From Candidatus Aenigmatarchaeota archaeon (lineage in GTDB: Archaea; Aenigmatarchaeota; Aenigmatarchaeia; PWEA01; B50-G16): a stretch of 15,743 bases of DNA. The notes beneath the pieces are model-generated. The model did no database searches. It was given only the letters and a program-made list of their open reading frames with translations, and had not been told where the DNA came from. How positions within the stretch are numbered: the first letter of the stretch is position 1; each line of letters opens with the position of its first letter. Where the stretch lies: positions 1 to 15,743 of the forward strand of contig QMZU01000006.1 in assembly GCA_003663345.1 (NCBI GenBank). Direction: 5' to 3'. Of the stretch, positions 3,373 to 15,743 are shown piece by piece. The position numbers and the translations under genes were made by a program.

Positions 3373-3394
3373 CAATAAGAATTTCGAAGCCCTT

Positions 3395-3403
3395 CTTATA
3401 AAG
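3395..3403 (-). promoter_or_regulatory. TATA-like box for the surface protein gene
   Basis: Minus-strand CTTTATAAG, centred at 3399, 27 bases from the ATG at 3372. It lies just after the stop codon of the upstream methyltransferase gene, so the surface gene probably has its own promoter and a leaderless transcript. The position is seen; promoter activity is inferred. Confidence 0.6.
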
Positions 3404-3405
3404 GT

Positions 3406-4044
3406 TCACCGCGGGAATCCCCTCTTACCTATCAGCGGAACGAACCTGTACCATCCTTCCTCATGAATTATCTCAAATCCACCCTTCTTTTTCTCACCAA
3501 CAACCATCCTCTGAATATCCCTGCCAACAGGAGCAACAATCCTTCCACCCTCCTTCAACTGCTCAACCCATTCCTCCGGAATCTCCGGAGCAGCGGCTGT
3601 GCATATAATTCTATCGTATGGTGCCTCATCACTGTAACCGATACTTCCGTCACCCTCCACAATCCTCACATTTCTTATACCGGCCCTTTCAAGGTTTTTT
3701 CTTGCCATCTCTGCCAAGGAACGTATTCTTTCAACCGTTACGACCATTCCCTTTCTACCAACTATGTGTCCAAGCAATCCGGCCTGCCATCCAGAACCCG
3801 CGCCTATCTCGAGAATTTTCATCCCTTTTCCGGGGTTGAGTAACTCCGTCATTCTCACAACTGTTGTGGGTTGCGATATAGTCTGCCCCTCACCGATGTG
3901 TAACGGATAATCAGCATATGCTTCTTTTTTATATCTTTCCGGAACGAACCACTCTCTCTTAACTCTCCTTAACGCCTCTTCAATCTCCCTGCTCCGCAGT
4001 GTGCCTTCCCTCTTCATCTTGGAAATCAGCTCTTCAAGACCCAT
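3406..4044 (-). CDS. pcm: Protein-L-isoaspartate O-methyltransferase
   Basis: A 212-residue SAM-dependent methyltransferase that methylates L-isoaspartyl residues in aged proteins, the first step of their repair; cytosolic. The family pattern is complete. Residues 54-65 (QTISQPTTVVRM) hold the conserved Ser-containing substrate loop, residues 77-86 (ILEIGAGSGW) are SAM motif I, residues 143-150 (YDRIICTA) the post-II strand, residues 165-172 motif III, and residues 201-208 (FVPLIGKR) the usual C-terminal motif. The length is normal for archaeal Pcm. It starts 34 bases from, and divergently to, the R15P isomerase gene; a TATA-like box 27 bases upstream puts transcription start on the ATG. No functional link to its neighbours is evident. 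Confidence 0.95.
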   Translation of the reverse strand: MGLEELISKMKREGTLRSREIEEALRRVKREWFVPERYKKEAYADYPLHIGEGQTISQPTTVVRMTELLNPGKGMKILEIGAGSGWQAGLLGHIVGRKGMVVTVERIRSLAEMARKNLERAGIRNVRIVEGDGSIGYSDEAPYDRIICTAAAPEIPEEWVEQLKEGGRIVAPVGRDIQRMVVGEKKKGGFEIIHEEGWYRFVPLIGKRGFPR

Positions 4045-4047
4045 TAC

Positions 4048-4056
4048 TTTATTTAA
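4048..4056 (+). promoter_or_regulatory. TATA-like box for the R15P isomerase gene
   Basis: TTTATTTAA centred at 4052, 27 bases before the ATG at 4079. It lies within the 34-base gap shared with the divergent pcm gene and predicts a leaderless transcript. Confidence 0.6.
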
Positions 4057-4066
4057 CTACGAGCAC

Positions 4067-4075
4067 ATTAAAATT
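4067..4075 (-). promoter_or_regulatory. TATA-like box for pcm
   Basis: Minus-strand AATTTTAAT centred at 4071, 27 bases before the pcm ATG at 4044. Together with the plus-strand box at 4048-4056 it makes two interleaved promoters facing apart in one 34-base gap. Confidence 0.5.
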
Positions 4076-4078
4076 CTT

Positions 4079-4921
4079 ATGGAGCTCTCGGAGCTTGTAA
4101 AAAGAATAAAAAACCTTGAGATTCAGGGAGCAGAAGCGGTTGCCAGAGAGAGCATCAAATTTCTTCTGGACATGGAGAAGAGCGGCACTTCCCGTGATGA
4201 TATACTCAGGGCAGCGGAAACCCTCAGAACCGCAAGACCAACAGAGCCCTTTCTGAGGAACTGCATCAAAGTTGGTCTCAAGAGGGGATTCTTACCTGTC
4301 TTAGAGCAGATATCCTCATCAAAAGAGGAGATAGCCCGGTACGGGAGCAGGAAGATAAAGGATGGATATATCGTATACACACACTGCCATTCATCCACGG
4401 TTGTCCGTATCCTGGAGGAGGCGAAGAGACTCGGAAAGGAGTTCGAGGTCAGGGTCACGGAAACAAGACCCCTATACCAGGGAAGGAAGACGGCAAAAGA
4501 GCTCTCCGAACTCGACATACCTGTTACACTTTTCGTGGATTCCGGTGTTGGTCTGGCGCTCCAGGGTGCTGATATGATGATGATAGGTTCGGATGCCATA
4601 ACATCAGAGGGGAAGGTGGTGAACAAGATAGGAAGCAGGACTTTTGCCTATATAGCAAAGTCACTGGGAATCCCGGTTTACATCTGCACCAACTCCTGGA
4701 AGTTTGACCCAGAAACCATCTTCGGTTTTGAGGAACCGATAGAGGAGAGGTCACCGGAAGAGGTGTGGGATAACCCGCCGAATGGCGTCACAGTAAGGAA
4801 CCCGGCCTTTGAGATGATTGAACCTGAATTAATAGAGGCGATTATAACCGAAATAGGTGTTTACAGACCGGATGTGATGATGGAAGTGATTAAGGAAAGG
4901 TATCCTGAAATATTTGAATGA
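4079..4921 (+). CDS. Ribose-1,5-bisphosphate isomerase (eIF2B-like fold)
   Basis: A 280-residue member of the eIF2B alpha/beta/delta family. Its likely role is converting ribose-1,5-bisphosphate to ribulose-1,5-bisphosphate in the AMP pathway, because RuBisCO and AMP phosphorylase are encoded just downstream. Residues 52-62 (ARPTEPFLRNC) and 101-105 (THCHS) are family motifs; Cys103 and Asp172 (in IGSDAI) fall where the catalytic Cys and Asp of characterised R15P isomerases lie. Residues 183-186 (NKIG) are also typical. The open frame reaches back to 4001, but the ATG at 4079 is preferred: MELSELV is a normal family start and a TATA-like box is centred 27 bases upstream. At 280 residues it is shorter than the roughly 320 of characterised homologues, mainly at the N terminus. 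A regulatory aIF2B paralogue is the alternative; the context argues against it. Confidence 0.85.
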   Translation: MELSELVKRIKNLEIQGAEAVARESIKFLLDMEKSGTSRDDILRAAETLRTARPTEPFLRNCIKVGLKRGFLPVLEQISSSKEEIARYGSRKIKDGYIVYTHCHSSTVVRILEEAKRLGKEFEVRVTETRPLYQGRKTAKELSELDIPVTLFVDSGVGLALQGADMMMIGSDAITSEGKVVNKIGSRTFAYIAKSLGIPVYICTNSWKFDPETIFGFEEPIEERSPEEVWDNPPNGVTVRNPAFEMIEPELIEAIITEIGVYRPDVMMEVIKERYPEIFE

Positions 4922-4930
4922 AATAAAATT

Positions 4931-4938
4931 TTTATATC
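4931..4938 (+). promoter_or_regulatory. TATA-like box for the ZIP transporter gene
   Basis: TTTATATC in an AT-rich 53-base gap. Transcription would start near 4961, giving a leader of about 14 bases that holds the GGTGA ribosome-binding site at 4966-4970, four bases before the ATG. This unit therefore seems to have a short leader, unlike most of its neighbours. Confidence 0.5.
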
Positions 4939-4974
4939 AATTAAAAACCAAAAGAAAGAGCTACAGGTGATTGA

Positions 4975-5700
4975 ATGATTCTGCTCTGGATAATTGGAAG
5001 CACACTCTTCGTCAGCGCCATATCACTCATCGGAATTTTTACATTGCTTTTGAAGGAAAAAACAGTTGAAAATATTATACTCTTTCTCGTTTCTCTCTCA
5101 GCAGGGGCACTGATGGGAGGCGCCTTCATACATTTGATACCTGAATCGGTGGAGGTCGGTGGCTCTGAGGTTTTTCTTTACGTACTCATCGGCTTTATAA
5201 TGTTCTTCTTCGTGGAGAAGGTTCTTCACTGGAGGCACTGCCACAAGGAGAGATGTCCGATTCACACATTCGCTTACATAAATCTGGTCGGTGATGGTGT
5301 TCACAACTTCATAGACGGACTGATCATGGCCGCAGCCTTCCTCACGGACATCCATCTCGGAATCATCACAACTCTTCTGGTGACCCTACATGAGATACCC
5401 CAGGAGATAGGAGACTTTGGTGTTCTCGTTTATGGCGGTTTCAGCAGAGTCCGGGCATTGATGATGAATTTCATTTCCGCAATAACAGCGGTGCTGGGTG
5501 GTATTTTTGGGTTTTTGCTCTACGGTTATGTGGAGTCACTCACACTCTTCCTTCTACCATTTGCAGCAGGTGGTTTCATTTACATCTCCGCCTCTGACCT
5601 CATCCCGGAGATAAGGAAGGATACCGGTCTCAGGAATTCCATGATAAACTTCACAATCTTCCTTCTCGGAATACTCCTGATGCTCCTCATCAAGGGGTAA
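4975..5700 (+). CDS. ZIP family divalent metal transporter
   Basis: A 241-residue inner-membrane protein with about seven to eight hydrophobic helices. ZIP proteins carry Zn2+, Fe2+ or Mn2+ into the cytosol. The two signature helices are clear: residues 110-115 (HNFIDG) and 139-147 (HEIPQEIGD), giving His110, Asn111, Asp114, His139, Glu140 and Glu144 as binuclear-site candidates. Residues 85-97 form a loop between helices with four His and two Cys, a likely metal-sensing or capture loop. The ATG at 4975 has a GGTGA ribosome-binding site four bases upstream. It sits between the R15P isomerase and RuBisCO genes on the same strand. It may supply a metal to enzymes nearby, but metal specificity cannot be read from the sequence. 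Confidence 0.92.
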   Translation: MILLWIIGSTLFVSAISLIGIFTLLLKEKTVENIILFLVSLSAGALMGGAFIHLIPESVEVGGSEVFLYVLIGFIMFFFVEKVLHWRHCHKERCPIHTFAYINLVGDGVHNFIDGLIMAAAFLTDIHLGIITTLLVTLHEIPQEIGDFGVLVYGGFSRVRALMMNFISAITAVLGGIFGFLLYGYVESLTLFLLPFAAGGFIYISASDLIPEIRKDTGLRNSMINFTIFLLGILLMLLIKG

Positions 5701-5702
5701 GG

Positions 5703-5709
5703 TTTTAAA
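5703..5709 (+). promoter_or_regulatory. TATA-like box for the RuBisCO-AMP phosphorylase unit
   Basis: TTTTAAA centred at 5706, 27 bases before the ATG at 5733. No Shine-Dalgarno sequence precedes that ATG, so a leaderless rbcL-deoA message is predicted. The box begins directly after the ZIP gene stop codon. Confidence 0.6.
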
Positions 5710-5732
5710 CCAGCACCAGCAATAATGATACT

Positions 5733-6974
5733 ATGAAAGGAATGCGTTATGTGGATTTCATAGATACCGGGTACAAACCCGGGAAAAACGATCTGGTCTG
5801 TACGTTCTACCTTGAAGCCAAGAACTTCAGAAGGGCTGCAGGAGCTGTTGCTGCTGAATCATCAATAGGCACATGGGACCCGAACCTCAAGACCATGAGA
5901 CCGGGTATAAGGAAACTCGGCGCCAAGGTATTTCATCTCAAGAGGAATCTGATTAAAATCTCCTATCCTGAAGAACTCTTTGAAAGAGGGAACATCTCCC
6001 AGATACTGAGCTCAATAGCAGGAAACATCTTCGGGATGAAGGAACTTGATTCCCTGAAGCTTTTGGATGTTGAGATCCCCAGAAGAATGGTGAAATCCTT
6101 CCCGGGACCAGGTTTCGGTGTGAAAGGTATAAGGAATCTGCTCCACGTCAGGAAGAGACCATTGCTCGGAACCATAATAAAACCAAAACTCGGTTTGAGG
6201 GAGAAACAGCACGCCAGAGTTGCCTATCATGCATGGAGAGGAGGTCTGGATATTGTAAAGGATGATGAGAACCTCACCGATATGAGGTTCAACCGTTTCG
6301 AGAAGAGGGTTGATGAGACGCTCAAGATGAGGAACAGAGCAGAGGAAGAAACCGGTGAGAAGAAGATATATATGCCGAATATAACCGCACCTCTCTCCGA
6401 GATGAAGAGGAGAGCGGATTATGTTATGGATAAAGGCGGTGAGTATGTGATGATAGATATTATAACCACGGGTTTCTCCGCGCTCCAGGAGATGAGGGAT
6501 TACCTCAATGGAAGATGTGTTATTCATGCTCACAGGGCGATGCATGCCGCTTTCACGAGAAATCCCAAACATGGGATAGATATGAAGGTGGTGGCGCTCT
6601 TCGCTCGGCTGGCCGGTGTTGACCAGCTCCACACAGGCACTGTCCTCGGGAAGATGGAAGGGGAGAAAGAAGAGGTCCTCTCTACAAATGAAAAGTTGCT
6701 TTCAGACCTCTACGGACTTAAGAAGGTTTTACCTGTTGCTTCAGGAGGTCTCCATCCAGGAATGGTACCGGCCCTTGTCAGAATACTCGGTCAGGACCTG
6801 GTGATACAGGCAGGTGGAGGTGTCCACGGTCATCCTTCGGGCACAGAGGCAGGCGCCAGGGCAATGAGGCAGGCGCTCGATGCCTTCATGGAAGGTGCAG
6901 ACCTTAGGGATTATTCCAGAGAGCATCCGGAACTTGAAGAAGCGCTCAAGAGGTGGGGAGTCTGTGAAGCTTAA
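5733..6974 (+). CDS. rbcL: Ribulose-1,5-bisphosphate carboxylase large chain, form III
   Basis: A 413-residue archaeal RuBisCO that makes two 3-phosphoglycerates from RuBP, CO2 and water. All catalytic positions I can align to plant RuBisCO are present: Glu42, Thr47 and Trp48 (AESSIGTW), Asn98, Lys150 and Lys152 (GTIIKPKLGL), the carbamylated Lys176 with Asp178 and Glu179 (KDDEN), His267 and Arg268, His300, loop-6 Lys307 (GKMEG), Ser337 (SGG) and the phosphate-binding Gly cluster at 361-363. It is therefore a true carboxylase and not a RuBisCO-like protein. No small subunit is encoded here. Its place between the R15P isomerase and AMP phosphorylase genes points to AMP salvage and not a Calvin cycle. 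The ATG at 5733 matches the leaderless promoter; a second Met at codon 4 is the alternative start. Its 3' end overlaps the next gene by 11 bases. Confidence 0.96.
   Translation: MKGMRYVDFIDTGYKPGKNDLVCTFYLEAKNFRRAAGAVAAESSIGTWDPNLKTMRPGIRKLGAKVFHLKRNLIKISYPEELFERGNISQILSSIAGNIFGMKELDSLKLLDVEIPRRMVKSFPGPGFGVKGIRNLLHVRKRPLLGTIIKPKLGLREKQHARVAYHAWRGGLDIVKDDENLTDMRFNRFEKRVDETLKMRNRAEEETGEKKIYMPNITAPLSEMKRRADYVMDKGGEYVMIDIITTGFSALQEMRDYLNGRCVIHAHRAMHAAFTRNPKHGIDMKVVALFARLAGVDQLHTGTVLGKMEGEKEEVLSTNEKLLSDLYGLKKVLPVASGGLHPGMVPALVRILGQDLVIQAGGGVHGHPSGTEAGARAMRQALDAFMEGADLRDYSREHPELEEALKRWGVCEA
6951..6956 (+). promoter_or_regulatory. Ribosome-binding site for AMP phosphorylase
   Basis: AGGTGG, seven bases before the GTG at 6964 and inside the RuBisCO coding sequence. 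It selects the GTG over the upstream in-frame ATG at 6880 and suggests translation is coupled to that of RuBisCO. Confidence 0.6.
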
Positions 6975-8511
6975 GGCGATACCGCTTGACATCTACACAG
7001 GAGGAAGATACGTGGCTGTGATGAACAAAGAGAGAGTCGAGAGCATGAACCTCCACCCACAGGACAGGATTCTCATAAAGTTCGGCTCCGAGGAGGTCGT
7101 GGCGATAATAGATACCACAGAGCGCGGCATTGGAAAGGATGAAATCGGAACTTATAAGGATACCACTGAAAAACTGGGAATCAAAAAAGGAGACCTTGTT
7201 GAGGTTGTTCCGGCAAAACCACCTGAAAGCGTGGAGTTCATCAAGGAGAAGATAAACAACCAGTCCCTGAACTACAAGAAGATATTGAAAATAATAGAGG
7301 ATGTTGTTGAGAGAAATATAACCGACATAGAGCTGGCCTCATTCGTCACAGCTCTCCATCTGAACGGCGTGAGTCTCGAGGAGGCAGAGTACCTGAGCAG
7401 AGCAATGGCAGAGACAGGAAGGATTCTCGAGCTCGGGAAGAAACCTATTTATGATAAACATTCAATAGGTGGTGTTCCGGGAGATAAAACAACAATGCTC
7501 GTGGTGCCGATAGTCGCATCTGCCGGACTGATCATACCCAAGACCTCATCAAAAGCCATCACATCACCGGCGGGAACCGCGAACCGTGTAGGTGTACTCA
7601 CGAATGTGGACCTCACACTTGAAGAGATAAAGGAGGTTGTGGAGAAGACGAACGGGTGTATGGCATGGGGAGGTTCCATGGAGCTTGCGCCTGCAGATGA
7701 CCTTTTGATACAGGTGGAGTACCCCATAGGTGTGGACCCGATGCTTTTACCATCGATAATGGCCAAGAAGAAGAGTGTCGGGGCGGATTATGTTGTGATC
7801 GATATACCGGTTGGAAGGGGTGCGAAGATAAGGACCATGGAGGAGGCGCAGGACTTGGCCGATAGTTTCATAGAACTTGGAAGAAGACTCGGTATGTCGG
7901 TGAGGTGTGGAATAACATATGGTGAACAGCCGATAGGGTACGCGATGGGACCTGCTCTTGAAGCTCTCGAAGCACTCAAAACCCTTATGGGTGACTGGAG
8001 CGCAAAGGACCTCGTGGAGAAGGCCACGTCACTTGCAGGAATGTTGCTTGAACTTTCCGGTGAGCATCGCGGAAAAGAGAAAGCTCTCAAAATTCTCAAA
8101 GAAGGTGTGGCGGAGAAGAAGTTCAGAGAAATAATCGGTGAGCAGGGAGGAGACCCGGATGTGAAGCCCTCGGATATTCAACTCGGGGATAAGGTGGTCC
8201 AGATAAAATCAAACCACAGCGGTCAGGTCCTCTGGCTGAGCAACCCGATACTCTCGGAGATAGCCAGAGCTGCGGGTGCGCCGAAGGATGAAGGAGCTGG
8301 TGTGCTACTCAATAAGAAGGTGAATGACCTCGTGAACAAGGGGGACCTTCTTTTTACTATATACGCTGAATCAGAGAGGAGGATGGACAGAGCTCTTGAG
8401 ATACTTAAAAGAGAAGAACCGGTGATAGTGAGGAAGAAGATAACGGAGAAGATGCTTCTGGAGGAGGTTCCGGGGAAGAAGCAGGAGAGGTTCTTCCTTT
8501 TGGAGAGATAG
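6964..8511 (+). CDS. deoA: AMP phosphorylase (archaeal thymidine phosphorylase family)
   Basis: A 515-residue enzyme that splits AMP with phosphate into adenine and ribose-1,5-bisphosphate, the entry step of the AMP pathway. Residues 1-85 match the extra N-terminal domain of archaeal AMP phosphorylases (LDIYTGGRYVAVMN). The thymidine phosphorylase core follows: residues 164-173 (DKHSIGGVPG) bind phosphate, residues 193-205 are the KTSSKAITSPAGT segment, and the C-terminal domain ends near 503. The frame is open from 6880, but the GTG at 6964 starts at the family N terminus and has AGGTGG seven bases upstream. It overlaps rbcL by 11 bases. The segment after SPAGTA reads Asn-Arg-Val where I recall archaeal and bacterial family members having Asp; this is worth checking but does not make the gene look inactive. 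Confidence 0.94.
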   Translation: MKLKAIPLDIYTGGRYVAVMNKERVESMNLHPQDRILIKFGSEEVVAIIDTTERGIGKDEIGTYKDTTEKLGIKKGDLVEVVPAKPPESVEFIKEKINNQSLNYKKILKIIEDVVERNITDIELASFVTALHLNGVSLEEAEYLSRAMAETGRILELGKKPIYDKHSIGGVPGDKTTMLVVPIVASAGLIIPKTSSKAITSPAGTANRVGVLTNVDLTLEEIKEVVEKTNGCMAWGGSMELAPADDLLIQVEYPIGVDPMLLPSIMAKKKSVGADYVVIDIPVGRGAKIRTMEEAQDLADSFIELGRRLGMSVRCGITYGEQPIGYAMGPALEALEALKTLMGDWSAKDLVEKATSLAGMLLELSGEHRGKEKALKILKEGVAEKKFREIIGEQGGDPDVKPSDIQLGDKVVQIKSNHSGQVLWLSNPILSEIARAAGAPKDEGAGVLLNKKVNDLVNKGDLLFTIYAESERRMDRALEILKREEPVIVRKKITEKMLLEEVPGKKQERFFLLER

Positions 8512-8515
8512 CTGA

Positions 8516-9727
8516 TCACTCTATTATTTTTCCTCTATTAGTTAAATTTAGTATCTCAGGAATTACATCCTTTCCTTCTATTCTTTCAAGAGCACCAAAG
8601 GTTTCGCAGTATTTCTCACCAAAAGCCAGAGTGTCATCCCTTCTCATATCACCGGTCCCGTAAAAAAGTATCGGGACATCATCTCCACTATGGTCTTTAA
8701 TACTGCAGGGGGTTGAGTGGTCACCTGTTATAACCATCAACGCTTTTGTTTTTGACAGGATTCTCATGGCATTATCGATATTTTGGATAAAATTCATCTT
8801 TCCAACAGCATCTCCATCATGACCATACAGGTCCGTACCCTTTATGTGAAGGAAAACAAAATCGAACCTTTTTGTGGCCTTTGAAGCTGTCTTGAATTTT
8901 GCATGAAGGTCAGTGTTCTTCCCTCCTGTTGCCCCTCTGACCTTTAAAATCTTCATTCCAAGGAATCTGCCGACACCTTTATAAAGCCCTGTACCGGCTA
9001 TACAACATGCCTTTAAACCATACCTCCTCTCAAATTCTTCAACCTTTTTATAAGTGCCGGCACCTCTTAGAAGGATGAAATTTGCGGGCAGAAGGTGCTT
9101 TCTCTTGCGCTCTCTGTTTGCTCTATGGTTCTCGAGGATTTTGTGAACTCTTTCAATGTACTTATTCAATACTTTTGCTGTTCTTTTTGCTTCTGGTGAT
9201 AGACTCCTCACCTTTTTGGGCTTTCTATTTGGTTTTCTTGGATCTGAGTCTGTTAATTGAGAGGAGAGGTTCTCCCCGCGCAGAATCAATGCTGCTCTAT
9301 GTTCGGTTCCGGCCTTCAGAATGAATTCAATTCCATCCATCTCCATTCTCAAATCCTTTTCAAAGCATCTAACATCTTTTATTCTACCTGCCCTTCTATC
9401 GATGATTACTCCTTTACTTATAGTCGCAAAATTAACCCGGAAAACCACATCTCCCTCTTTAATTTTTTCACCCGTTCCCAGTGCTTCTAAAGGACCTCTA
9501 CCGGGATAAAAATTGTAATATGGATGATAACCAAGTATTTCAAAATGTGCCGGTCCTGATTCTGGCGTCCACCCAAGGCTAAGAGGACTCATCATTCCAC
9601 ATAATCCTTCCCTTGCAAGATAATTCATGAACGGCGTGGATGCGGCCTCGAGAGGTGTTTCGCCAAAGAACTCCTTACACGGTCTGTCACCGAGACCATC
9701 TAAAATTATTAGAATAGCCCTTTTCAT
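8516..9727 (-). CDS. apgM: 2,3-bisphosphoglycerate-independent phosphoglycerate mutase, archaeal type
   Basis: A 403-residue enzyme of the alkaline phosphatase superfamily that interconverts 3- and 2-phosphoglycerate. Metal and catalytic residues are visible: Asp10 (ILDGLGDRP), nucleophile Ser57 (ESGPAHFEILGY), Asp299 and His303 (KGTDLYGHDGD), Asp336 and His337 (TGDHSTP), and His346. The phosphate loop GRGPLEALG is at residues 77-85. The start at 9727 (MKRAILIILDG) suits the family N terminus and lies about 27 bases from a TATA-like box; an ATG two codons upstream, at 9733, is the alternative. It converges on AMP phosphorylase with only four bases between the stop codons. Functionally it continues the AMP pathway, since RuBisCO makes its substrate. 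Confidence 0.94.
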   Translation of the reverse strand: MKRAILIILDGLGDRPCKEFFGETPLEAASTPFMNYLAREGLCGMMSPLSLGWTPESGPAHFEILGYHPYYNFYPGRGPLEALGTGEKIKEGDVVFRVNFATISKGVIIDRRAGRIKDVRCFEKDLRMEMDGIEFILKAGTEHRAALILRGENLSSQLTDSDPRKPNRKPKKVRSLSPEAKRTAKVLNKYIERVHKILENHRANRERKRKHLLPANFILLRGAGTYKKVEEFERRYGLKACCIAGTGLYKGVGRFLGMKILKVRGATGGKNTDLHAKFKTASKATKRFDFVFLHIKGTDLYGHDGDAVGKMNFIQNIDNAMRILSKTKALMVITGDHSTPCSIKDHSGDDVPILFYGTGDMRRDDTLAFGEKYCETFGALERIEGKDVIPEILNLTNRGKIIE

Positions 9728-9750
9728 TAACATTTCTTTACTCGAGGGTT

Positions 9751-9758
9751 TATTTAAA
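9751..9758 (-). promoter_or_regulatory. TATA-like box for apgM
   Basis: Minus-strand TTTAAATA, centred 27 to 28 bases before the ATG at 9727. This favours 9727 over 9733 as the first codon of a leaderless message. Confidence 0.55.
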
Positions 9759-9772
9759 ATTTGAGATAGTAA

Positions 9773-10723
9773 TTAAATTATACAGACCAATATCATACTG
9801 GTCAGGGCCGTTATCGGGACTGTGAAAACCCAGGTAGTTGTTATTTCTCTAACCGTTCTCCATCTAATCTTTTCACTTGAGACCATCCCTATGCCGAGAA
9901 TTGCTCCTATGAGAATATGTGTTGTGGAGACCGGTATTGCGAGAAATGTGAAGAGTATCACCACAATCGCGGAGCTAAACTGGGAGCAGAAACCTTTCAT
10001 GGGTGTTAGACGGAATATTCCGCGCCCCACGGTTTTCATCACCCTTCCTCCCCAGGTCAGAACACCGATTGCTACACCCACCGCTCCGATCACCATCAAG
10101 AGGTCCGGATTGAAATCAAGACCGACCAGTATCCCCACAGCCTTTGGAACGGAATTCGCGCCAGCACCGAAGCAGAAGAGAGACGCGGAAAGAACCTGCA
10201 GAAGCGCGAACATCCTTTCAATTCTTCTTCTTTCACGAACACCCCTCATTCTGGTGTAAAGAAGATTCCTTATCCCAAGATATACCAGAGCAGCGATGAA
10301 GAGCGAGATGAATGGTGAAAGAATCCAGGAGAGAATTATCTCCACGGTCAGACCCAGATTCAGGTTCATGCCGGCCCCTATCCCCACACCTATCAATGAG
10401 CCTATCAGTGAATGACTCAACGATATCGGCACCCTCTTATAGGTAGCGTAAAATATCCAGAGGGATGTTGAAAGGAGAACAATACAGATAACCTCAACAC
10501 TCATAACCTCCTGAGGCACCATTTTCATGCCTATTGTTCCCATCACAGCTCCACCAAAGGTCAGCGCTCCGAACAGCTGAAAAAACGATGCGAGGAGAGT
10601 TGCCTTTCTGACCCGGAGCGCCCCGGAACCGACAGACGTGCTCATTGCGTTTGCAAGGTCATTCGCACCGAGGTTCCAGGCAAGGAAGAGACCTAGAAAC
10701 AGCGGAACGAGAACCTCCAGCAT
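9773..10723 (-). CDS. PiT family inorganic phosphate transporter
   Basis: A 316-residue membrane protein of the PiT family (cation-coupled phosphate uptake) with about ten hydrophobic segments. The first signature is intact (WNLGANDLANAMSTSVG, residues 15-31), with Asn and Asp placed for ion and phosphate binding. The second repeat signature reads FGAGANSVPKAVG, so the usual Asp and second Asn of GANDVANA are replaced. Near the C terminus IPVSTTHILIG matches the family STTH motif; KRVPISLSHSLIG is its counterpart in the first half. The frame is open from 10846, but the ATG at 10723 starts directly before the first helix; a GTG three codons earlier is possible. It is divergent from a PhoU-like gene, a usual PiT partner. 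Phosphate supply for AMP phosphorolysis is a plausible role. Confidence 0.9.
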   Translation of the reverse strand: MLEVLVPLFLGLFLAWNLGANDLANAMSTSVGSGALRVRKATLLASFFQLFGALTFGGAVMGTIGMKMVPQEVMSVEVICIVLLSTSLWIFYATYKRVPISLSHSLIGSLIGVGIGAGMNLNLGLTVEIILSWILSPFISLFIAALVYLGIRNLLYTRMRGVRERRRIERMFALLQVLSASLFCFGAGANSVPKAVGILVGLDFNPDLLMVIGAVGVAIGVLTWGGRVMKTVGRGIFRLTPMKGFCSQFSSAIVVILFTFLAIPVSTTHILIGAILGIGMVSSEKIRWRTVREITTTWVFTVPITALTSMILVCII

Positions 10724-10733
10724 CTGTATCACA

Positions 10734-10741
10734 TTTATATT
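10734..10741 (+). promoter_or_regulatory. TATA-like box for the PhoU-like gene
   Basis: TTTATATT, centred about 27 bases before the ATG at 10764, which supports that start over the longer open frame from 10638. It lies in the 40-base gap shared with the divergent PiT gene. Confidence 0.55.
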
Positions 10742-10751
10742 GAAGTTTTCC

Positions 10752-10760
10752 TTAAATAAA
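10752..10760 (-). promoter_or_regulatory. TATA-like box for the PiT gene
   Basis: Minus-strand TTTATTTAA centred at 10756, predicting transcription from about 10729 and a leader of about six bases before the ATG at 10723. The PiT and PhoU-like promoters face apart and are interleaved within 40 bases. Confidence 0.45.
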
Positions 10761-10763
10761 GTT

Positions 10764-11417
10764 ATGAAGTTCTGGAGACCGCCAATATCCCTTGGCAGGG
10801 AGGAGGATATAAACAAAGAGTTCGCACTTTTTCTCAACGAGGTCACAAAGGCTGTGGAGCGCCTTCAGGACTCGGTTCTTGTGTTTTCTTTGGGAAATCT
10901 GGAAAAAGCCAGAGAGTTCGCGAAAAAAATATCAGAACATGAGGCGAAGGCAGATGAGCACCGGAGAAGGGTGGAGAAGATGCTCTACAGTGAAGGGTTT
11001 CTTCCATATGACAGGTCCGATAAGGTGGCTCTAACGGAGATGCTGGACGATATAGCTGATGCGGCGGAAATAACAGCAAATTTCTGCACCCTCAGAAAGG
11101 TGGATATGCCAGATGATTTGAAAGACCTGTATGACAAGCTCAGCAGAAAGGTACAGGATGCCATGAGGAACCTGAAGAGCGCGGTAGTGATTATGGATGA
11201 CAACCTTGCAGAAGCCATAAAGCTCATAGGCGCTGTCGAGGAGGACAGGAAAGAGGCAAGGAAAATAACACACCAGATACTGGAGAAACTCTTCTCGGAC
11301 AAGATGGACCCCACAACCATAATATTCCTGAAAGAGCTGGCCTACAGATTGATGAGAGTTGCAGATATGGCTGAAGAGGCCAGTGACAGGCTCTCGATAA
11401 TGGCTGCAAGGATATAA
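10764..11417 (+). CDS. PhoU-like regulator of phosphate transport, DUF47 family
   Basis: A 217-residue, all-helical cytosolic protein of the DUF47/PhoU-like family. Such proteins are commonly encoded beside PiT transporters and are thought to control them. It has acidic clusters typical of PhoU metal sites: Glu58, Glu60 and Asp63 (SEHEAKADEHRR), Asp95, Asp96 and Asp99 (EMLDDIADAAE), and Asp201, Glu204 and Asp208 in the last helix (RVADMAEEASDRL). The ATG at 10764 starts MKFWRPPISLGRE and sits 27 bases after a TATA-like box; the upstream frame is the complement of the PiT N-terminal coding region and is not expected to be translated. The divergent PiT gene is the probable partner. Confidence 0.9.
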   Translation: MKFWRPPISLGREEDINKEFALFLNEVTKAVERLQDSVLVFSLGNLEKAREFAKKISEHEAKADEHRRRVEKMLYSEGFLPYDRSDKVALTEMLDDIADAAEITANFCTLRKVDMPDDLKDLYDKLSRKVQDAMRNLKSAVVIMDDNLAEAIKLIGAVEEDRKEARKITHQILEKLFSDKMDPTTIIFLKELAYRLMRVADMAEEASDRLSIMAARI

Positions 11418-11458
11418 AAAGAAAGAAATTGGCCGGTCACTTCTTTGCGATCACTACA

Positions 11459-11755
11459 TCACTTGGCCAGAGTTATTGTTATTGAAGAGACGTTTATGTT
11501 CTCACCGTCCTCTGTGGTGATCTCTTCTGTATCTATGGTGATGTCCTTGATTTTGGCATCCTCGACAAACCTTTTCCTCGTTATCTCTGCAACATCCACC
11601 GCTCTCGAGATGGCTTTTCCTCTTGCCTTGATCTGGACCTCCTTGTTCCCTTCGCTGAACTGCGTCACCGCAGCGAGGACGTAACTCATTGTGGGCTTCT
11701 TTCCCACAAGAACAACGTTCTCTTCTGCCTTCTTGGCTTCTTTCTTTGCTGCCAT
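11459..11755 (-). CDS. albA: Alba family chromatin / nucleic-acid-binding protein
   Basis: A 98-residue Alba protein, an abundant dimeric archaeal DNA- and RNA-binding protein. A Lys/Glu-rich tail (residues 1-12) precedes the Alba fold: [16 protein letters not shown] at 16-31, [17 protein letters not shown] at 42-58 with the DNA-contacting Lys/Arg residues, and the beta hairpin [17 protein letters not shown] at 78-94. It has a strong ribosome-binding site (GGGGGTGA, 11763-11770) seven bases before the ATG and a predicted leader of about 20 to 35 bases. This differs from the leaderless neighbours and fits high expression. It is convergent with the PhoU-like gene. Confidence 0.95.
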
Positions 11756-11762
11756 TCATTCT

Positions 11763-11770
11763 TCACCCCC
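11763..11770 (-). promoter_or_regulatory. Strong ribosome-binding site for Alba
   Basis: Minus-strand GGGGGTGA, seven bases before the ATG at 11755. It selects this ATG over the out-of-frame ATG at 11759. It is the longest Shine-Dalgarno match I noticed in the window. Confidence 0.7.
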
Positions 11771-11795
11771 TGTATTCCTTAAACTGATACACAGG

Positions 11796-11820
11796 AAATA
11801 ATAAAAAAATTAAATATTTA
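11796..11820 (-). promoter_or_regulatory. AT-rich probable promoter of Alba
   Basis: Minus-strand run holding TAAATATTTA and a T-rich stretch. Either could be the TATA box, placing the transcript start between about 11776 and 11788. The exact box cannot be chosen by eye. Confidence 0.4.
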
Positions 11821-11852
11821 AAAGCTTTCCCTGAACACTTGTTTCTGGCCGT

Positions 11853-12167
11853 TTACGTAATAACGCAACCACATGCTCTTCTGATGTCGTCATCTGGAGC
11901 ACCGGTACACGCGGCTCCACTCAGACCGTTCATAGTGCAGTATGCATCTCTGAGTCCAGTGATGGTGTCCGGGTCTTTTGAACAGTCATTTACCAACGCT
12001 CCACATGCCTTGTTGAAATCTGCTCTTGCTTTCTGAACCTCTGCTCCTGGTGTGAACGCTCCCATGAAAAATGCCACTATCGCTAGAAGTACTATTATCG
12101 CTATAGCCAGAATTACAAGTGTGTTTATTGGCAGTGAAACTCCTTTTCTCCCTACCATACTGTTCAC
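11853..12167 (-). CDS. Archaeal type IV pilin-like protein, six cysteines
   Basis: A 104-residue secreted protein. The leader ends in Arg-Lys-Gly (residues 7-9) followed by VSLPINTLVIL and a hydrophobic helix to about residue 36, the layout of an archaeal prepilin cut after Gly9 with the helix used for filament assembly. The mature domain of about 65 residues has Cys at 55, 62, 77, 87, 99 and 101, enough for three disulfides. The start is a GTG at 12167 whose promoter box lies about 28 bases upstream; the ATG at 12158 (MVGRKGVS) is equally possible. Adhesive or structural pilus subunit is an inference from the N terminus; I recognise no named family for the rest. Confidence 0.75.
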   Translation of the reverse strand: MNSMVGRKGVSLPINTLVILAIAIIVLLAIVAFFMGAFTPGAEVQKARADFNKACGALVNDCSKDPDTITGLRDAYCTMNGLSGAACTGAPDDDIRRACGCVIT

Positions 12168-12191
12168 TTTTATACATTTTTGGAGATTTTA

Positions 12192-12199
12192 TATATAAA
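12192..12199 (-). promoter_or_regulatory. TATA-like box for the six-Cys pilin gene
   Basis: Minus-strand TTTATATA within a longer alternating run, about 28 bases before the GTG at 12167. It suggests a separate transcript for this pilin. Confidence 0.55.
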
Positions 12200-12226
12200 G
12201 GTTTTCTATTGGGATTAAAATAGGAA

Positions 12227-12559
12227 TCAGGTGCAGCAGTAATTTTCTATATTTGTTATCACCCAAACTAATCCCAAACCAGGAATGTTTACTCTTGATG
12301 TACCCATTCCATATTTATTCCTACACTCTTCATTTATATTATCGTAAGCAAATTTCCTGCAGTCATCGGTCGGATCCGGACAACATCCTCTTGTGTTGAA
12401 TGTCAGGCAAAAGTTCCTCAACTGTGCTTGGCAGTCTATATTTTTCGATGTGCCGGGCCATACGCCGCTGAAAAGGGCAATCATAGCCATCAGAACAAAT
12501 ATGGCAAGAACAAGGATTATCAGTGCGTTAACAGTTATAGATATGCCCTTCACGTTCAT
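12227..12559 (-). CDS. Archaeal type IV pilin-like protein, eight-cysteine module
   Basis: A 110-residue protein. The leader MNVKG is cut by prediction after Gly5, then ISITVNALIILVLAIFVL forms the assembly helix. Cys lie at 43, 51, 59, 60, 67, 79, 108 and 109: C-x7-C-x7-CC-x6-C-x11-C and a final CC near the C terminus. The same order, with nearly the same first spacings, occurs in the glycosidase fusion encoded just upstream, so the two are probably paralogues in their first 90 residues. The frame is open from 12598, but the ATG at 12559 is the family-like start and has a TATA-like box 27 bases upstream. It could be a pilus subunit that co-assembles with the fusion protein. Confidence 0.75.
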   Translation of the reverse strand: MNVKGISITVNALIILVLAIFVLMAMIALFSGVWPGTSKNIDCQAQLRNFCLTFNTRGCCPDPTDDCRKFAYDNINEECRNKYGMGTSRVNIPGLGLVWVITNIENYCCT

Positions 12560-12582
12560 CACTTTATTTTTCACGCTCTGGA

Positions 12583-12590
12583 TATTTAAA
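12583..12590 (-). promoter_or_regulatory. TATA-like box for the eight-Cys pilin gene
   Basis: Minus-strand TTTAAATA, centred 27 bases before the ATG at 12559 and immediately after the stop codon of the glycosidase fusion gene. This pilin can be transcribed separately from the operon upstream. Confidence 0.6.
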
Positions 12591-12591
12591 A

Positions 12592-14166
12592 TTAACACGA
12601 GTCATTCTGTATACAATCCTTCAGGGTCTGGAATGACGGTTTGGGCTGGAGGGTGTTTATATCTATGAGTCCAAAATTGGTATCACCGGTGTAAAGCATG
12701 TAGTAACATGCTATGAAGTCGTTGAGTTTATGGTGTTTAACTGATGACTTAAGCTCCGGAATATATTTTCTTATCCATTTACTCTGATCCTGCTCTGTGC
12801 CAGGCAGATTGCCGCAACATCCTGTTTCCATTATACTTAACCTTTTTCCGTATGCCGGGCTGGTTGAATTATCAATGAATTTGTCCACCATATCATCTAC
12901 AGTTTCATATATTGAGGGTGAGAACCATACCTCTGGATATGGATCGGGCCCTATGATGTCTATGTAATCCAGAGCACCATTGTTACCGAGGTCTCTCAAA
13001 TAGTTGATGTAACCACCACTCCAAACAAATGGATTTATAATTGTAAAGTAATTTCCATCACCTTCTTCTATTCCATCTCTCATATACATATATGCGGTTG
13101 GCTCTTCATCTGTTGAAAACCATTCGTGATGTGCAGTATCCTCCTCATTAGAAAGCTGATAATAATCAATCAGATCACCGTACTCGGTGGCAACCCTTTT
13201 TGAATATTCTTTTAGTTCTTTCCAGAAACTATTTATGTCGGAGCCCTTCAGATTATCCGCCCAGGCAGGGCTTCTGGCTCTCACCCCTATAACGGCTATT
13301 ATTTCAAAACCTTCTGATTTCAGTTTCTCGAAGATGTTCCTGTAAGCATTTATGGCATGCTGATTCCATGCATTGTTGCCGGGCTCTAGATGCTTCCAGT
13401 TTATATCAATCCTCACGTACTTGACCCCCAAATCTTTCATCTTCTCTATGGCGGTATTCAGATACCTGTTTGTGTTCACATCAACGCTCCAGTCACCGGG
13501 CACATACCCGTCATCTGAACCAACTCCCCAGAAATTCTCGGGATGCATGCACATGCACCACGCTATCTCTTCCACCACATATATGGTTACAGTATCCGTA
13601 TCGGTGTTTCCATCATTGTCGGTCACGAGTAAGGTAACGGTGTACTTTCCGGTTGTTGTGTAAGTATGGGTTGTGGTTCCTGTAGCAGAAGAAAAATCAA
13701 AACTTCCGTCACCGTCAAAATCCCATTTATAATCCACTATATTTCCGTCAGAGTCCGAGGAATAGGTGCTCCCGTCAAAATAGACAGTCTCACCCACACT
13801 TACCGTCAGAACCTTGTCAGTTGGATTTGGAGAGGTTCCTACGCGGGCATCAGCCTCAGGAACACTTCCAACCAGACCAGCACCACCGGAAGAACCTGCA
13901 CCTTCGAAACAGCAGTTTTTGAGATTATACGTAATTGTGCATATAACTGGAAGAGATAGTGACCGGCATTCGACCTTTGAACTGTCCTCGCAACATCCCT
14001 TTAACATATACTCTATACAGAGTTTCTTATACTCCTTATGGCAATCGACCGTTTTTTCACTCGGTTTGGCGGTGCCAATGAAGAGCGCTGCACTGGAACC
14101 CAAGACAATCATTGCTAAGAGTATAAGGACCAAAGAGTTTATGGTCAGTGACGTTCCTTTAAACAT
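12592..14166 (-). CDS. Pilin-like / PKD / glycoside hydrolase (clan GH-A-like) fusion protein
   Basis: A 524-residue multidomain secreted protein. Residues 1-31 are a prepilin-like leader (MFKG) and hydrophobic helix (TSLTINSLVLILLAM). Residues 42-86 hold eight Cys (42, 50, 58, 59, 67, 76, 85, 86). A Gly/Ser linker leads to a PKD domain, about residues 108-199, with the WDFDGDGS and TYTTTGKYTVTL signatures. Residues 201-524 look like a TIM-barrel glycoside hydrolase: KYVRIDINWKHLEP at 249-262, a conserved Asn340-Glu341 after strand 4 (YYQLSNEE, acid/base) and Glu447 after strand 7 (LSIMETG, nucleophile). The family (GH5, GH39 or similar) and substrate are not clear. The frame is open from 14208; the ATG at 14166, eight bases after the preceding stop, gives the pilin-like start. 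It is probably the last gene of an operon and displayed outside the cell. Confidence 0.82.
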   Translation of the reverse strand: MFKGTSLTINSLVLILLAMIVLGSSAALFIGTAKPSEKTVDCHKEYKKLCIEYMLKGCCEDSSKVECRSLSLPVICTITYNLKNCCFEGAGSSGGAGLVGSVPEADARVGTSPNPTDKVLTVSVGETVYFDGSTYSSDSDGNIVDYKWDFDGDGSFDFSSATGTTTHTYTTTGKYTVTLLVTDNDGNTDTDTVTIYVVEEIAWCMCMHPENFWGVGSDDGYVPGDWSVDVNTNRYLNTAIEKMKDLGVKYVRIDINWKHLEPGNNAWNQHAINAYRNIFEKLKSEGFEIIAVIGVRARSPAWADNLKGSDINSFWKELKEYSKRVATEYGDLIDYYQLSNEEDTAHHEWFSTDEEPTAYMYMRDGIEEGDGNYFTIINPFVWSGGYINYLRDLGNNGALDYIDIIGPDPYPEVWFSPSIYETVDDMVDKFIDNSTSPAYGKRLSIMETGCCGNLPGTEQDQSKWIRKYIPELKSSVKHHKLNDFIACYYMLYTGDTNFGLIDINTLQPKPSFQTLKDCIQNDSC

Positions 14167-14174
14167 AATATACA

Positions 14175-14375
14175 CTATTTGAAGAGTAGATTTGAAACAA
14201 CCTCCCATTTGGACGGATCTTTGACTGTGTTTATCGCCTGTTCGATATCGGAAAACTTTACCAGACCCAGAAATATTATTATAACCACGAGGACTATCAG
14301 AGCGAGTATTATACCCACCAGTGCGCTGAAAGCAAGACCCTTTTTCAGGTTATCACCGGTTATTATTTCGTTCAA
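14175..14375 (-). CDS. Small pilin-like membrane protein
   Basis: A 66-residue protein if read from the TTG at 14375. A Lys-Lys-Gly site (residues 11-13) precedes one long hydrophobic helix of about 24 residues (LVGIILALIVLVVIIIFLGLV), then a short polar tail without Cys. This is the layout of a minor pilin or a pilus-base protein. The start is uncertain: no ATG or GTG exists in frame and the TTG lacks a ribosome-binding site. A CTG at 14348, which would give an N terminus like the neighbouring pilins (M-KKG), has GGTGA four bases before it, the same spacing as two other genes here. It lies 15 bases after the preceding gene and eight before the next, so it is part of an operon. Confidence 0.65.
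   Translation of the reverse strand: MNEIITGDNLKKGLAFSALVGIILALIVLVVIIIFLGLVKFSDIEQAINTVKDPSKWEVVSNLLFK
14353..14357 (-). promoter_or_regulatory. GGTGA ribosome-binding-site match inside the small pilin frame
   Basis: Minus-strand GGTGA, four bases before an in-frame CTG at 14348. The same motif and spacing precede the ZIP gene ATG and the ATG at 15371. It suggests either a CTG start or a chance match. Confidence 0.35.
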
Positions 14376-14390
14376 AATAGTATAAAAATA

Positions 14391-15371
14391 TTAGAAGTAG
14401 TAATGGTAGACCACTGAAAATTCAGGGTTCGTATATCCGGATTTTGTGAGAATCTGGTTAACAGTATCTCTTGCCTTTATGAGTATTTTGACGTCCTTGC
14501 CTTCTATCAACCCGTCGGCCCTCTTTTCCGGGTCAGTGACGCAGCATGGGTCCCAGCATGGATATGGGATGCCGTAAGGGTCTGTGCATGTCTTCCAGCA
14601 CCCTGTGCAACAGGTATTTCCTGTATTTATGCAGTCTTGAGAATAGTCGTAATTCAATGTACCGGGTATCACTGCAGCAGAAACTGTCACGCCATCCTCT
14701 GTAAATCCATGACTTGCGAGATGAGAATTTATTTTGCTCATATAGCTATGGAGGCATACACTTTCTATCCAGTTACAATCCTTGCAGAATATCATACTGC
14801 ACGTATCGCTGTCCGGGAGGGATAGGGTCTGTACAAACTTTTTCACCTTCTTGTAGGCGAGAAGGTACTTCATATCTATTTTTTTATGGAACTCATATTC
14901 CGAACTCAGTTCAAAATCCGGTCTGTTAAGTTTCACTTTCACCTTTGGATTTGTTTTCACCTCATAATAATCATCCTGTATATCATAATAGCTGGTTGAG
15001 AAGAACTGTATTCTGATATTACTCTCTCCTTCAAGAAGTGCCTGATAAATTCCCATCTTTGTATCTATTTCGTCCCTCAATTTTGTCTTGACATAATCCT
15101 CCGAAGGTACATTTCCCGGAGACCACATCCCGTAACCGAATCCGTTCCCTCCAAGATACAGGGCTGCCCACTCCGCAGCAAATCTGGCGGAATCATTTAG
15201 AAAATATCTCGCATTGTCAAGGTCCACTTTGGATTTTATTATCATGAATTCATTGTGCACAAGCTCTATCTGCTGGTTATGAAACACGGTGTAACCTACC
15301 ACGAGGATGGCAGTGGCTGCAATTATAAAAGCCACCAGAATTATTCCCACATAACCCTTCTCCCCAAACAT
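14391..15371 (-). CDS. Pilin-like secreted protein with cysteine-rich C-terminal half
   Basis: A 326-residue protein. The leader MFGEKG is followed by YVGIILVAFIIAATAILVVGYTVF (a Lys-Gly prepilin-like site and one helix), then an extracellular domain. About residues 30-70 look helical; a beta-rich region follows. Twelve Cys cluster between about residues 190 and 281, including two CC pairs and a Cys/Pro/Trp/Tyr-rich segment (CCTGCWKTC, then PCWDPCC). This is a minor-pilin or TadE-like plan, but I recognise no named family for the outer domain. The ATG at 15371 has GGTGA four bases upstream, overlapping the previous stop codon, so translation is probably coupled. A tip adhesin or pilus-assembly role is an inference from the N terminus and neighbours. 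Confidence 0.75.
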   Translation of the reverse strand: MFGEKGYVGIILVAFIIAATAILVVGYTVFHNQQIELVHNEFMIIKSKVDLDNARYFLNDSARFAAEWAALYLGGNGFGYGMWSPGNVPSEDYVKTKLRDEIDTKMGIYQALLEGESNIRIQFFSTSYYDIQDDYYEVKTNPKVKVKLNRPDFELSSEYEFHKKIDMKYLLAYKKVKKFVQTLSLPDSDTCSMIFCKDCNWIESVCLHSYMSKINSHLASHGFTEDGVTVSAAVIPGTLNYDYSQDCINTGNTCCTGCWKTCTDPYGIPYPCWDPCCVTDPEKRADGLIEGKDVKILIKARDTVNQILTKSGYTNPEFSVVYHYYF

Positions 15372-15379
15372 TTTTTCAC

Positions 15380-15743
15380 CTATAATGTGACCTCTGGAAG
15401 ATAGAGATCCTCCGTGAAGAACACCTCACCTGATGATATTTTTACGTGCATAATTTCTCCCTCAGGATATGCAACCGGCATCTCATATTTGCTTCCATAG
15501 CCCCATATTCCTGCTCCGAGGTCTTCCTCTCCGCCATCCACCTCAAGTTTTATCGAGACCTCATTTTCGTACTTGTTGATTACGTCATTTAACTCGTCCT
15601 TTATGTCCGAATCTCTGGTTATCATATACAACCTGGCGGCTTCTCTCACATCGCCATAGTTTTCCGTTTCAAGTTTCAGAAATGTTATGAGATTTACCAT
15701 GCCGGTGAAACCGCCGGTTATCTCCTCTCTTATTTCTATTGCC
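15380..15743 (-). CDS. Unrecognised protein, 5' end outside the window
   Basis: The frame is open to the right edge; 120 codons are visible before a TAG at 15380-15382. An internal Met at codon 15 of the visible part could be read as a start, but the frame continues upstream (GGFTGMVNLITFL) with no ribosome-binding site, so the gene almost certainly starts outside. The visible part is helical and charged (YENEVSIKLEVDGGEEDLG), then beta-like with a Tyr/Gly-rich stretch (GAGIWGYGSKYEM). It lacks Cys. It lies eight bases before the Cys-rich pilin-like gene and is probably in the same operon. The sequence suggests no function. Confidence 0.65.
   Translation of the reverse strand, partial: AIEIREEITGGFTGMVNLITFLKLETENYGDVREAARLYMITRDSDIKDELNDVINKYENEVSIKLEVDGGEEDLGAGIWGYGSKYEMPVAYPEGEIMHVKISSGEVFFTEDLYLPEVTL

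Follow-up and report, generated by a model that had tools for sequence, protein, structure and literature searches.

A pilin-headed protein with a predicted clan GH-A glycosidase domain in a member of the Aenigmatarchaeota

We investigated a 15,743-nucleotide stretch of DNA (hereafter, the window) from a Candidatus Aenigmatarchaeota archaeon (assembly GCA_003663345.1, contig QMZU01000006.1, positions 1 to 15,743), in which one minus-strand gene (12592-14166) encodes a 524-residue protein, P0001, with the architecture of a modular pilin: a small pilin, a linker, a PKD domain and a clan GH-A-like barrel. We consider it probable that P0001 is a modular minor pilin that holds a clan GH-A glycosidase outward, most likely trimming a beta-linked glycan to help contact. 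This reading draws on the domain order, the small-pilin-like family of the head, the predicted barrel with both catalytic glutamates, the recurrence of the fusion, the surrounding cluster of pilin-like genes and the pilus machinery genes of the same genome. The original prediction, of a glycosidase displayed on a filament or on the membrane, is supported to the extent that sequence and a predicted fold allow.

Domain order and pilin head

The P0001 gene runs from an ATG at 14166 to a stop codon at 12592-12594 and leaves 524 codons open on the minus strand with no in-frame stop, the single continuous frame that had been claimed for it; the plus strand of 12592-14166 contains many stops in the frame read. 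An alternative upstream ATG at 14208 would add 14 residues, and falls within a separate 66-codon open reading frame (14175-14375, minus strand). The start at 14166 places K-G immediately ahead of the hydrophobic stretch (MFKG|TSLTINSLVLILLAMIVLGSSAALFIG).

Four parts follow one another along the protein. The pilin module (residues 1-90; 13897-14166), which contains the leader MFKG and eight Cys, is delimited by its match to a pilin profile, its Cys positions and modelled helices at 9-32 and 37-55; the flexible linker (residues 91-117; 13816-13896) lies in a region, residues 64-117, with pLDDT below 50. The PKD domain (residues 118-198; 13573-13815) has beta strands between 118 and 198 in the model and, in a Pfam scan, matched PF18911 over residues 120-196 with 57 bits, above the curated cut-off of 27, in agreement with the PKD spacer of the original prediction. 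The remainder (residues 199-524; 12595-13572) is predicted to fold as a (beta/alpha)8 glycosidase-like domain. GC content is 0.42-0.45 across the pilin, PKD and barrel parts, indicating an even composition. Pfam listed 11 families for P0001 with E of 1 or less, and no solute-binding protein domain of the bindosome type was among them.

The leader is basic, ends in Gly and is followed by a hydrophobic helix (MFKG|TSLTINSLVLILL), with a hydrophobic maximum of 2.78 at residue 12 and a helix modelled over residues 9-32. Against a profile built from 17 small pilins of other genomes, with no sequence of the window in it, P0001 scored 63.3 bits (E 3e-19), whereas 200 shuffled P0001 heads with their helix composition kept reached at most 12.8 bits (mean -2.0), and two control membrane proteins of the same window, PitA and ZIP, scored 0.6 and -2.4 bits. 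The prepilin-type N terminus thus lies well beyond chance. The heads of other glycosidase fusions scored 23.0 (P0121), 22.2 (P0122) and 16.0 bits (P0124) against the profile without window rows, and a profile-profile comparison of four fusion heads, that of P0001 among them, with a set of 19 small pilins to which the window contributed two gave a probability of 98.4%. The profile pilins were picked by eye from the small proteins of the phylum (19 in the profile-profile comparison, 17 without window rows and 16 in the A5 profile, which includes P0001 and both window pilins, W_123 and W_104), and their own pilin identity is deduced from leader, helix and clustering.

Within the window, W_123 aligned with residues 3-72 of P0001 at 35% identity (E 2.8e-11), and W_104 with residues 3-65 at 32% identity (E 1.3e-4). 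The eight-Cys module described in the original prediction was located at residues 42, 50, 58, 59, 67, 76, 85 and 86; W_123 also contains eight Cys, of which the first five are spaced nearly as in P0001, counted by eye. Judged by sequence, the head of P0001 is a whole small-pilin module, Cys layout included, rather than a signal alone.

We searched the phylum with the A5 profile and found the small-pilin family in 100 of 156 genomes, the same 156 that our class and phylum searches took in; the related genomes are of 0.3-1.9 Mb and mostly drafts. Most members among the matches listed are open frames of about 100-180 codons, the open frame of P0001 (585) being the longest listed, followed by frames of 236, 217, 211 and 208. 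The diverged head of a second fusion, in genome G079, was not among the small-pilin matches listed.

Predicted barrel and recurrence of the fusion

Predicted models and fold searches both gave residues 199-524 as a (beta/alpha)8 barrel, so that the TIM-barrel glycosidase-like domain of the original prediction is upheld as a predicted fold of GH-A type. Asn340, Glu341 and Glu447 stand at the positions that had been claimed for them. Glu341 (codon 13144-13146), the predicted acid/base, falls just past strand 4 (335-339) and aligns with the Glu of the NE motif in an ancestral family 1 glycosidase, and Glu447 (codon 12826-12828), the predicted nucleophile, ends strand 7 (442-448), in the layout in which the acids of clan GH-A would face each other. 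In a barrel alignment of seven rows (A4), with 25-44% identity to the domain in the window, Glu341 and Arg252 are kept in all seven rows, Tyr410 in all six and Glu447 in all five that cover them. Retention of these residues at such identities fits a maintained active site.

The family assignment of the barrel is less specific. By Pfam, P0001 reached no glycoside hydrolase cut-off, with a sub-threshold match to GH35 (E 4e-4) and none to GH1. Among four relatives scanned, P0121 and P0123 passed the GH1 cut-off and P0124 fell just below it, while P0121 and P0124 passed that of GH42; P0122 passed neither, and had no GH1 match. We additionally identified partial profile matches of the barrel to GH1-type chains in the PDB. 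PslG, which we take to belong to family GH39, was the top structure in a Foldseek search with the P0001 barrel (TMq 0.65), with a profile match limited to positions 31-88 (E 3e-5), and it was absent from the 50 rows shown of another fold search. Membership in one CAZy family was considered and rejected, the matches being spread over GH1, GH42, GH35, GH14, GH5, GH53, GH10 and GH39.

Only one close barrel match besides the window was identified, first among 95 genomes and then among the 156 of the phylum: that of G079, with 44% identity over residues 227-524. Its gene, of 476 codons, begins with a pilin-like helix and a C..C..CC module, and contains no PKD. The barrel profile matched seven of the 156 genomes, of which G079 and the genome of the window (G000) alone belong to the P0001 family; in two further genomes of the same genus, G030 (92% complete) and G087 (69%), nothing matched P0001. 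Further members came from the protein database: P0121, a near twin of the G079 protein, and P0122, P0124 and P0123, of which P0124 is a fragment ending past the first half of the barrel and P0123 a 207-residue barrel fragment on an 859-base contig. Of five distinct family members, with that of the window counted and G079 and P0121 treated as a single one, four have a visible pilin-like head; in the fifth no head is seen. The connection between head and barrel varies, with a PKD domain in P0001, a Cys-containing linker in P0121 and P0122, and a Pro-rich one in P0124. An ordinary Sec signal was considered for this family and rejected: by eye, none of the members with a visible N terminus reads so, and all four carry a pilin-like helix.

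Other barrels in the phylum fall outside the P0001 family. The G068 protein (313 residues, 27% identity over residues 234-517) is a distant GH-A protein with no N-terminal helix, and the 653-residue GH-A protein of G102 has a start that reads like an ordinary signal peptide; by Pfam these are GH53 and GH42 proteins, respectively, without a pilin head, indicating that GH-A barrels in this phylum are not always carried on pilins. In G042, G047 and G062 the match covered the first half of the barrel only, in frames of 442-444 codons that resemble GH1 enzymes (G047 by eye, the others by frame length). Searching for homologues with residues 196-524 retrieved the query itself only. A search with the full alignment A1 was dominated by PKD proteins, and P0121 was not among the matches listed (best 120 of 134). 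Scanning genome contigs gave nine loci, mostly from Peregrinibacteria, and in each of them the matched stretch takes in the PKD region. A viral origin was rejected, as the A4 scan of viral contigs returned 99 stretches that fit a pattern and none that was confirmed.

Gene neighbourhood and pilus machinery

The genes around P0001 on the minus strand run in the order W_120, W_326, a 66-residue membrane peptide, P0001, W_123, W_104 and Alba. Both W_123 (12227-12559; 110 residues from its ATG, of the same family as the P0001 head) and W_104 (11853-12158) are small pilins, scoring 77.5 and 85.8 bits against the external pilin profile; a TATA-like stretch, TTTATATATA, noted by eye, lies just upstream of W_104. 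Between W_326 and P0001, the 66-residue open reading frame (14175-14375) has a TTG start, followed by K-K-G and a long hydrophobic helix, and read in this way it perhaps encodes a minimal pilin-like membrane peptide. W_326 (14391-15371) is a larger pilin-like protein with a Cys-rich C-terminal half and no Pfam match, which resembles the N-terminal part of a 560-residue protein (L083 8959-10638; E 9e-6) and a 243-residue protein (L098 5155-5883; E 6e-7) from related loci. W_120 (15380-15742) is cut by the end of the window and contig and is open at its 5' end. Against the small-pilin profile W_326 and W_120 scored -9.1 and -1.6 bits, indicating that they are not of that family.

Past the small pilins, Alba (11459-11755; NCBIfam TIGR00285 above cut-off) provides a syntenic marker found in the same place in loci L083, L085 and L090. 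Among 19 sources whose neighbourhoods we compared, a small pilin is seen in 15; of the other four, L082, L087 and L093 lost theirs to an overlap filter, and L092 had been taken for its PKD match. In four of the 15, all of the same order, a small pilin is followed directly by Alba on the same strand: the window, L083 (genome G001), L085 (G005) and L090 (G008), with a proteasome alpha gene downstream of Alba in the last three. Alba is arranged otherwise in L096 and L098, and none is present in the stretch shown for nine of the 15, several of which are short contigs.

The gene just before the first small pilin varies between these lineages. In the window it encodes the glycosidase pilin, in G001 a pilin-headed Cys-rich protein of 782 residues, in G005 a related one of 293 residues and in G008 a protein of 469 residues with no Pfam match. 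We additionally identified a pilin-headed DUF1554 protein ahead of the small pilins in G006, above the Pfam cut-off (L084 5389-6249), and, one gene further up in G001, a DUF1554/endostatin-like domain on a pilin-like head, below the cut-off (L083 8959-10638). Domains of the DUF1554/endostatin kind are C-type-lectin-like. A speculative and somewhat doubtful extension is that the slot beside the small pilins, before Alba, is an interchangeable cargo position of a phylum-specific pilus, which different lineages would load with different surface modules (the glycosidase here, Cys-rich repeats in G001 and G005, DUF1554/endostatin-like domains in the G001 and G006 clusters) to cut or grip the glycan coat of a partner cell at the tip. 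If so, symbiont-host recognition would involve a contact-dependent enzyme.

Three tandem pilin-headed proteins of 757, 463 and 293 residues (L085 276-4820) share a repeated Cys-rich module, which also occurs at L083 6571-8916 and has no Pfam match above cut-off.

Pilus machinery genes were identified elsewhere in the source genome. T2SSE-family ATPase genes occur at two places on contig C4 and at one on C41, each time next to two T2SSF platform genes. A fourth ATPase gene, on C18, is accompanied by a platform match below the cut-off, and C106 encodes one A24 prepilin peptidase. As these genes are on other contigs, their connection with P0001 is one that we propose. In a search in which 14 of 14 controls were positive, neither G000 nor G079 yielded an SBP_bac_1 sugar-binding protein.

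Further observations concern the rest of the window and of the draft. On the plus strand, 4001-8511 brings together the genes of the archaeal AMP pathway: a type III RuBisCO and an AMP phosphorylase, both above the NCBIfam cut-off, and a ribose-1,5-bisphosphate-isomerase-like gene below it, with a ZupT-like gene (below cut-off) in between. Together with Alba, the three pathway genes point to an archaeal source, and a DPANN affiliation is likely. A repetitive protein of at least 1125 residues, probably surface-exposed and with no Pfam match at E up to 1, runs off the window edge on the minus strand (1-3375). Contigs C97 (L048; GC 0.603), with a recombinase-like gene noted by eye, and C88 (L047; GC 0.563) differ from the window (0.454) and may represent foreign DNA or contamination within the draft genome.

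Mode of display and comparison with known systems

From these features we infer how P0001 might be processed and assembled, and what its enzyme might do, on which substrate and to what end. The Sec route would insert P0001 into the membrane so that the C terminus faces outward, and the four-residue leader MFKG would be clipped after Gly4 by the prepilin peptidase of the genome. The helix would then enter a short filament or pseudopilus, polymerising with W_123 and W_104, and the PKD domain and flexible linker would keep the GH-A barrel away from the cell and exposed; the bulk of the module makes the filament tip its probable place. By a retaining mechanism, the enzyme would hydrolyse a beta-linked glycan of the surface or matrix, either on a partner cell or in the environment, its role most likely being to aid contact and not to feed the cell.

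Several observations weigh against this reading. Pfam Pilin_N, the archaeal pilin family, did not match P0001, and among six window proteins matched only W_104, weakly (E 0.029, under cut-off). The head of P0124, at 16.0 bits, barely exceeds the best shuffle, and P0122 as called has no K-G leader; its start (MELPAKYLV) aligns from just past the leader, and so may have been called too late. In two of the seven A4 rows, those of G079 and the closely similar P0121, Asp takes the place of the Asn before the acid/base Glu. In the window, which stops where its contig does, neither an ATPase nor a platform gene was recognised, and no A24 peptidase was matched in G079. The source genome (183 contigs, 74% complete) and G079 (81%) are drafts, so that such absences, the missing sugar-binding proteins included, carry little weight. 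Finally, a feeding role is a possibility for P0001, since Sulfolobus solfataricus has a cell- or membrane-associated amylase, carrying a class II leader, that reportedly helps the cell to use starch nearby and to take up its products (PMC5023256).

The pilin head could also be a membrane or S-layer anchor only, comparable to the bindosome, with the enzyme single on the surface and never in a filament. The Sulfolobus sugar-binding proteins offer a precedent: they have class III signal peptides, and the structure that they are proposed to build lies close to the membrane or inside the S-layer and is not a pilus (PMC2910488). The lack of recognised assembly genes in the window and the leaderless start of P0122 would be consistent with such an anchor. 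However, the head of P0001 extends beyond a signal peptide to the entire small-pilin module, with its Cys layout, and sits in a run of pilin-like genes of conserved synteny, and we consider an anchor alone unlikely.

Conservation of Glu341, Arg252, Tyr410 and Glu447 in all covering rows of A4, despite identities of 25-44%, argues in turn against a barrel that lacks catalysis and serves as a lectin-like adhesin at the pilus, as do the lectin modules of bacterial modular pilins. The Asp in place of Asn in G079/P0121, and the DUF1554/endostatin-like domains on pilin-like heads in the G001 and G006 clusters (above the Pfam cut-off in G006 only), would suit such an adhesin, and carbohydrate-binding modules are frequent among the extra modules of modular pilins (PMC8179133); we nonetheless judge it distinctly unlikely. 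That the fusion is an artefact of assembly or gene calling is scarcely credible even for a draft genome of this kind, given that head and barrel recur together in G079/P0121, P0122 and P0124, that no in-frame stop interrupts the gene and that its composition is even, and a chimeric assembly was rejected on the relatives with the same fusion and on this composition.

Little is known about the means by which very small archaea recognise partner cells and attach to them, and the pilins of such organisms readily escape notice; in Nanohaloarchaeota, pilus machinery is reported with no annotated pilins (PMC9563170). The P0001 locus yields a pilin-like family that can be searched for across the phylum, one member of which has a testable enzyme; an active barrel would, through its substrate, indicate which glycan the pilus meets.

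The claim of the original prediction that enzymes are rarely carried on pilin scaffolds has to be softened. In archaea, class III signal peptides have been reported for redox proteins and extracellular proteases as well as for substrate-binding proteins, in work that also describes the bindosome (PMC2910488); in Pyrococcus furiosus, pyrolysin has a class III signal peptide and the amylase PF0477 a class I signal (PMC3824201); and modular type IV pilins, reported as more than 1,200 bacterial proteins in 264 architectures, include predicted peptidases (PMC8179133). We found no pilin-glycosidase in a literature search at the level of titles and abstract openings, which argues only weakly for its absence. 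The word "hydrolase" is not used in the main text of PMC8179133, whose 264-architecture dataset may still include a glycosidase, and neither "hydrolase" nor "PKD" occurs in the main text of a survey of archaeal type IV pili (PMC4858521).

In the Sulfolobus bindosome and other class III signal peptide proteins, as in P0001, archaeal surface proteins carry prepilin-type N termini, some being sugar-binding and some proteases or redox proteins (PMC2910488). Unlike that set of solute-binding and other proteins, P0001 combines a complete small-pilin module with a GH-A-like barrel, within a pilin-like cluster. Its barrel has in common with clan GH-A enzymes, such as the GH1 beta-glucosidases and PslG, a predicted (beta/alpha)8 fold, Glu at strands 4 and 7 and the NE motif, but is shorter, at about 326 residues, than most structure-matched GH-A chains (425-490 residues), with 13-18% identity by structure among the 50 rows shown; it reaches no glycoside hydrolase cut-off and is carried on a pilin. 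PslG, described as a glycosyl hydrolase of an exopolysaccharide gene cluster (PMC9075953), serves here as a functional analogy only.

A close parallel lies with the modular type IV pilins such as PilB and PilC of Streptococcus sanguinis, in which a small pilin module is followed by a grafted functional module, and for which exposure of bulky modules at the tip has been proposed (PMC8179133). P0001 differs from these bacterial proteins in being archaeal, in having a pilin module of another family, and in its added glycosidase-like barrel; its PKD domain and GH-A-like barrel are additional modules that are not specific to pili. Thus, we regard P0001 as an archaeal, putatively glycosidase-bearing variant of the modular pilin.
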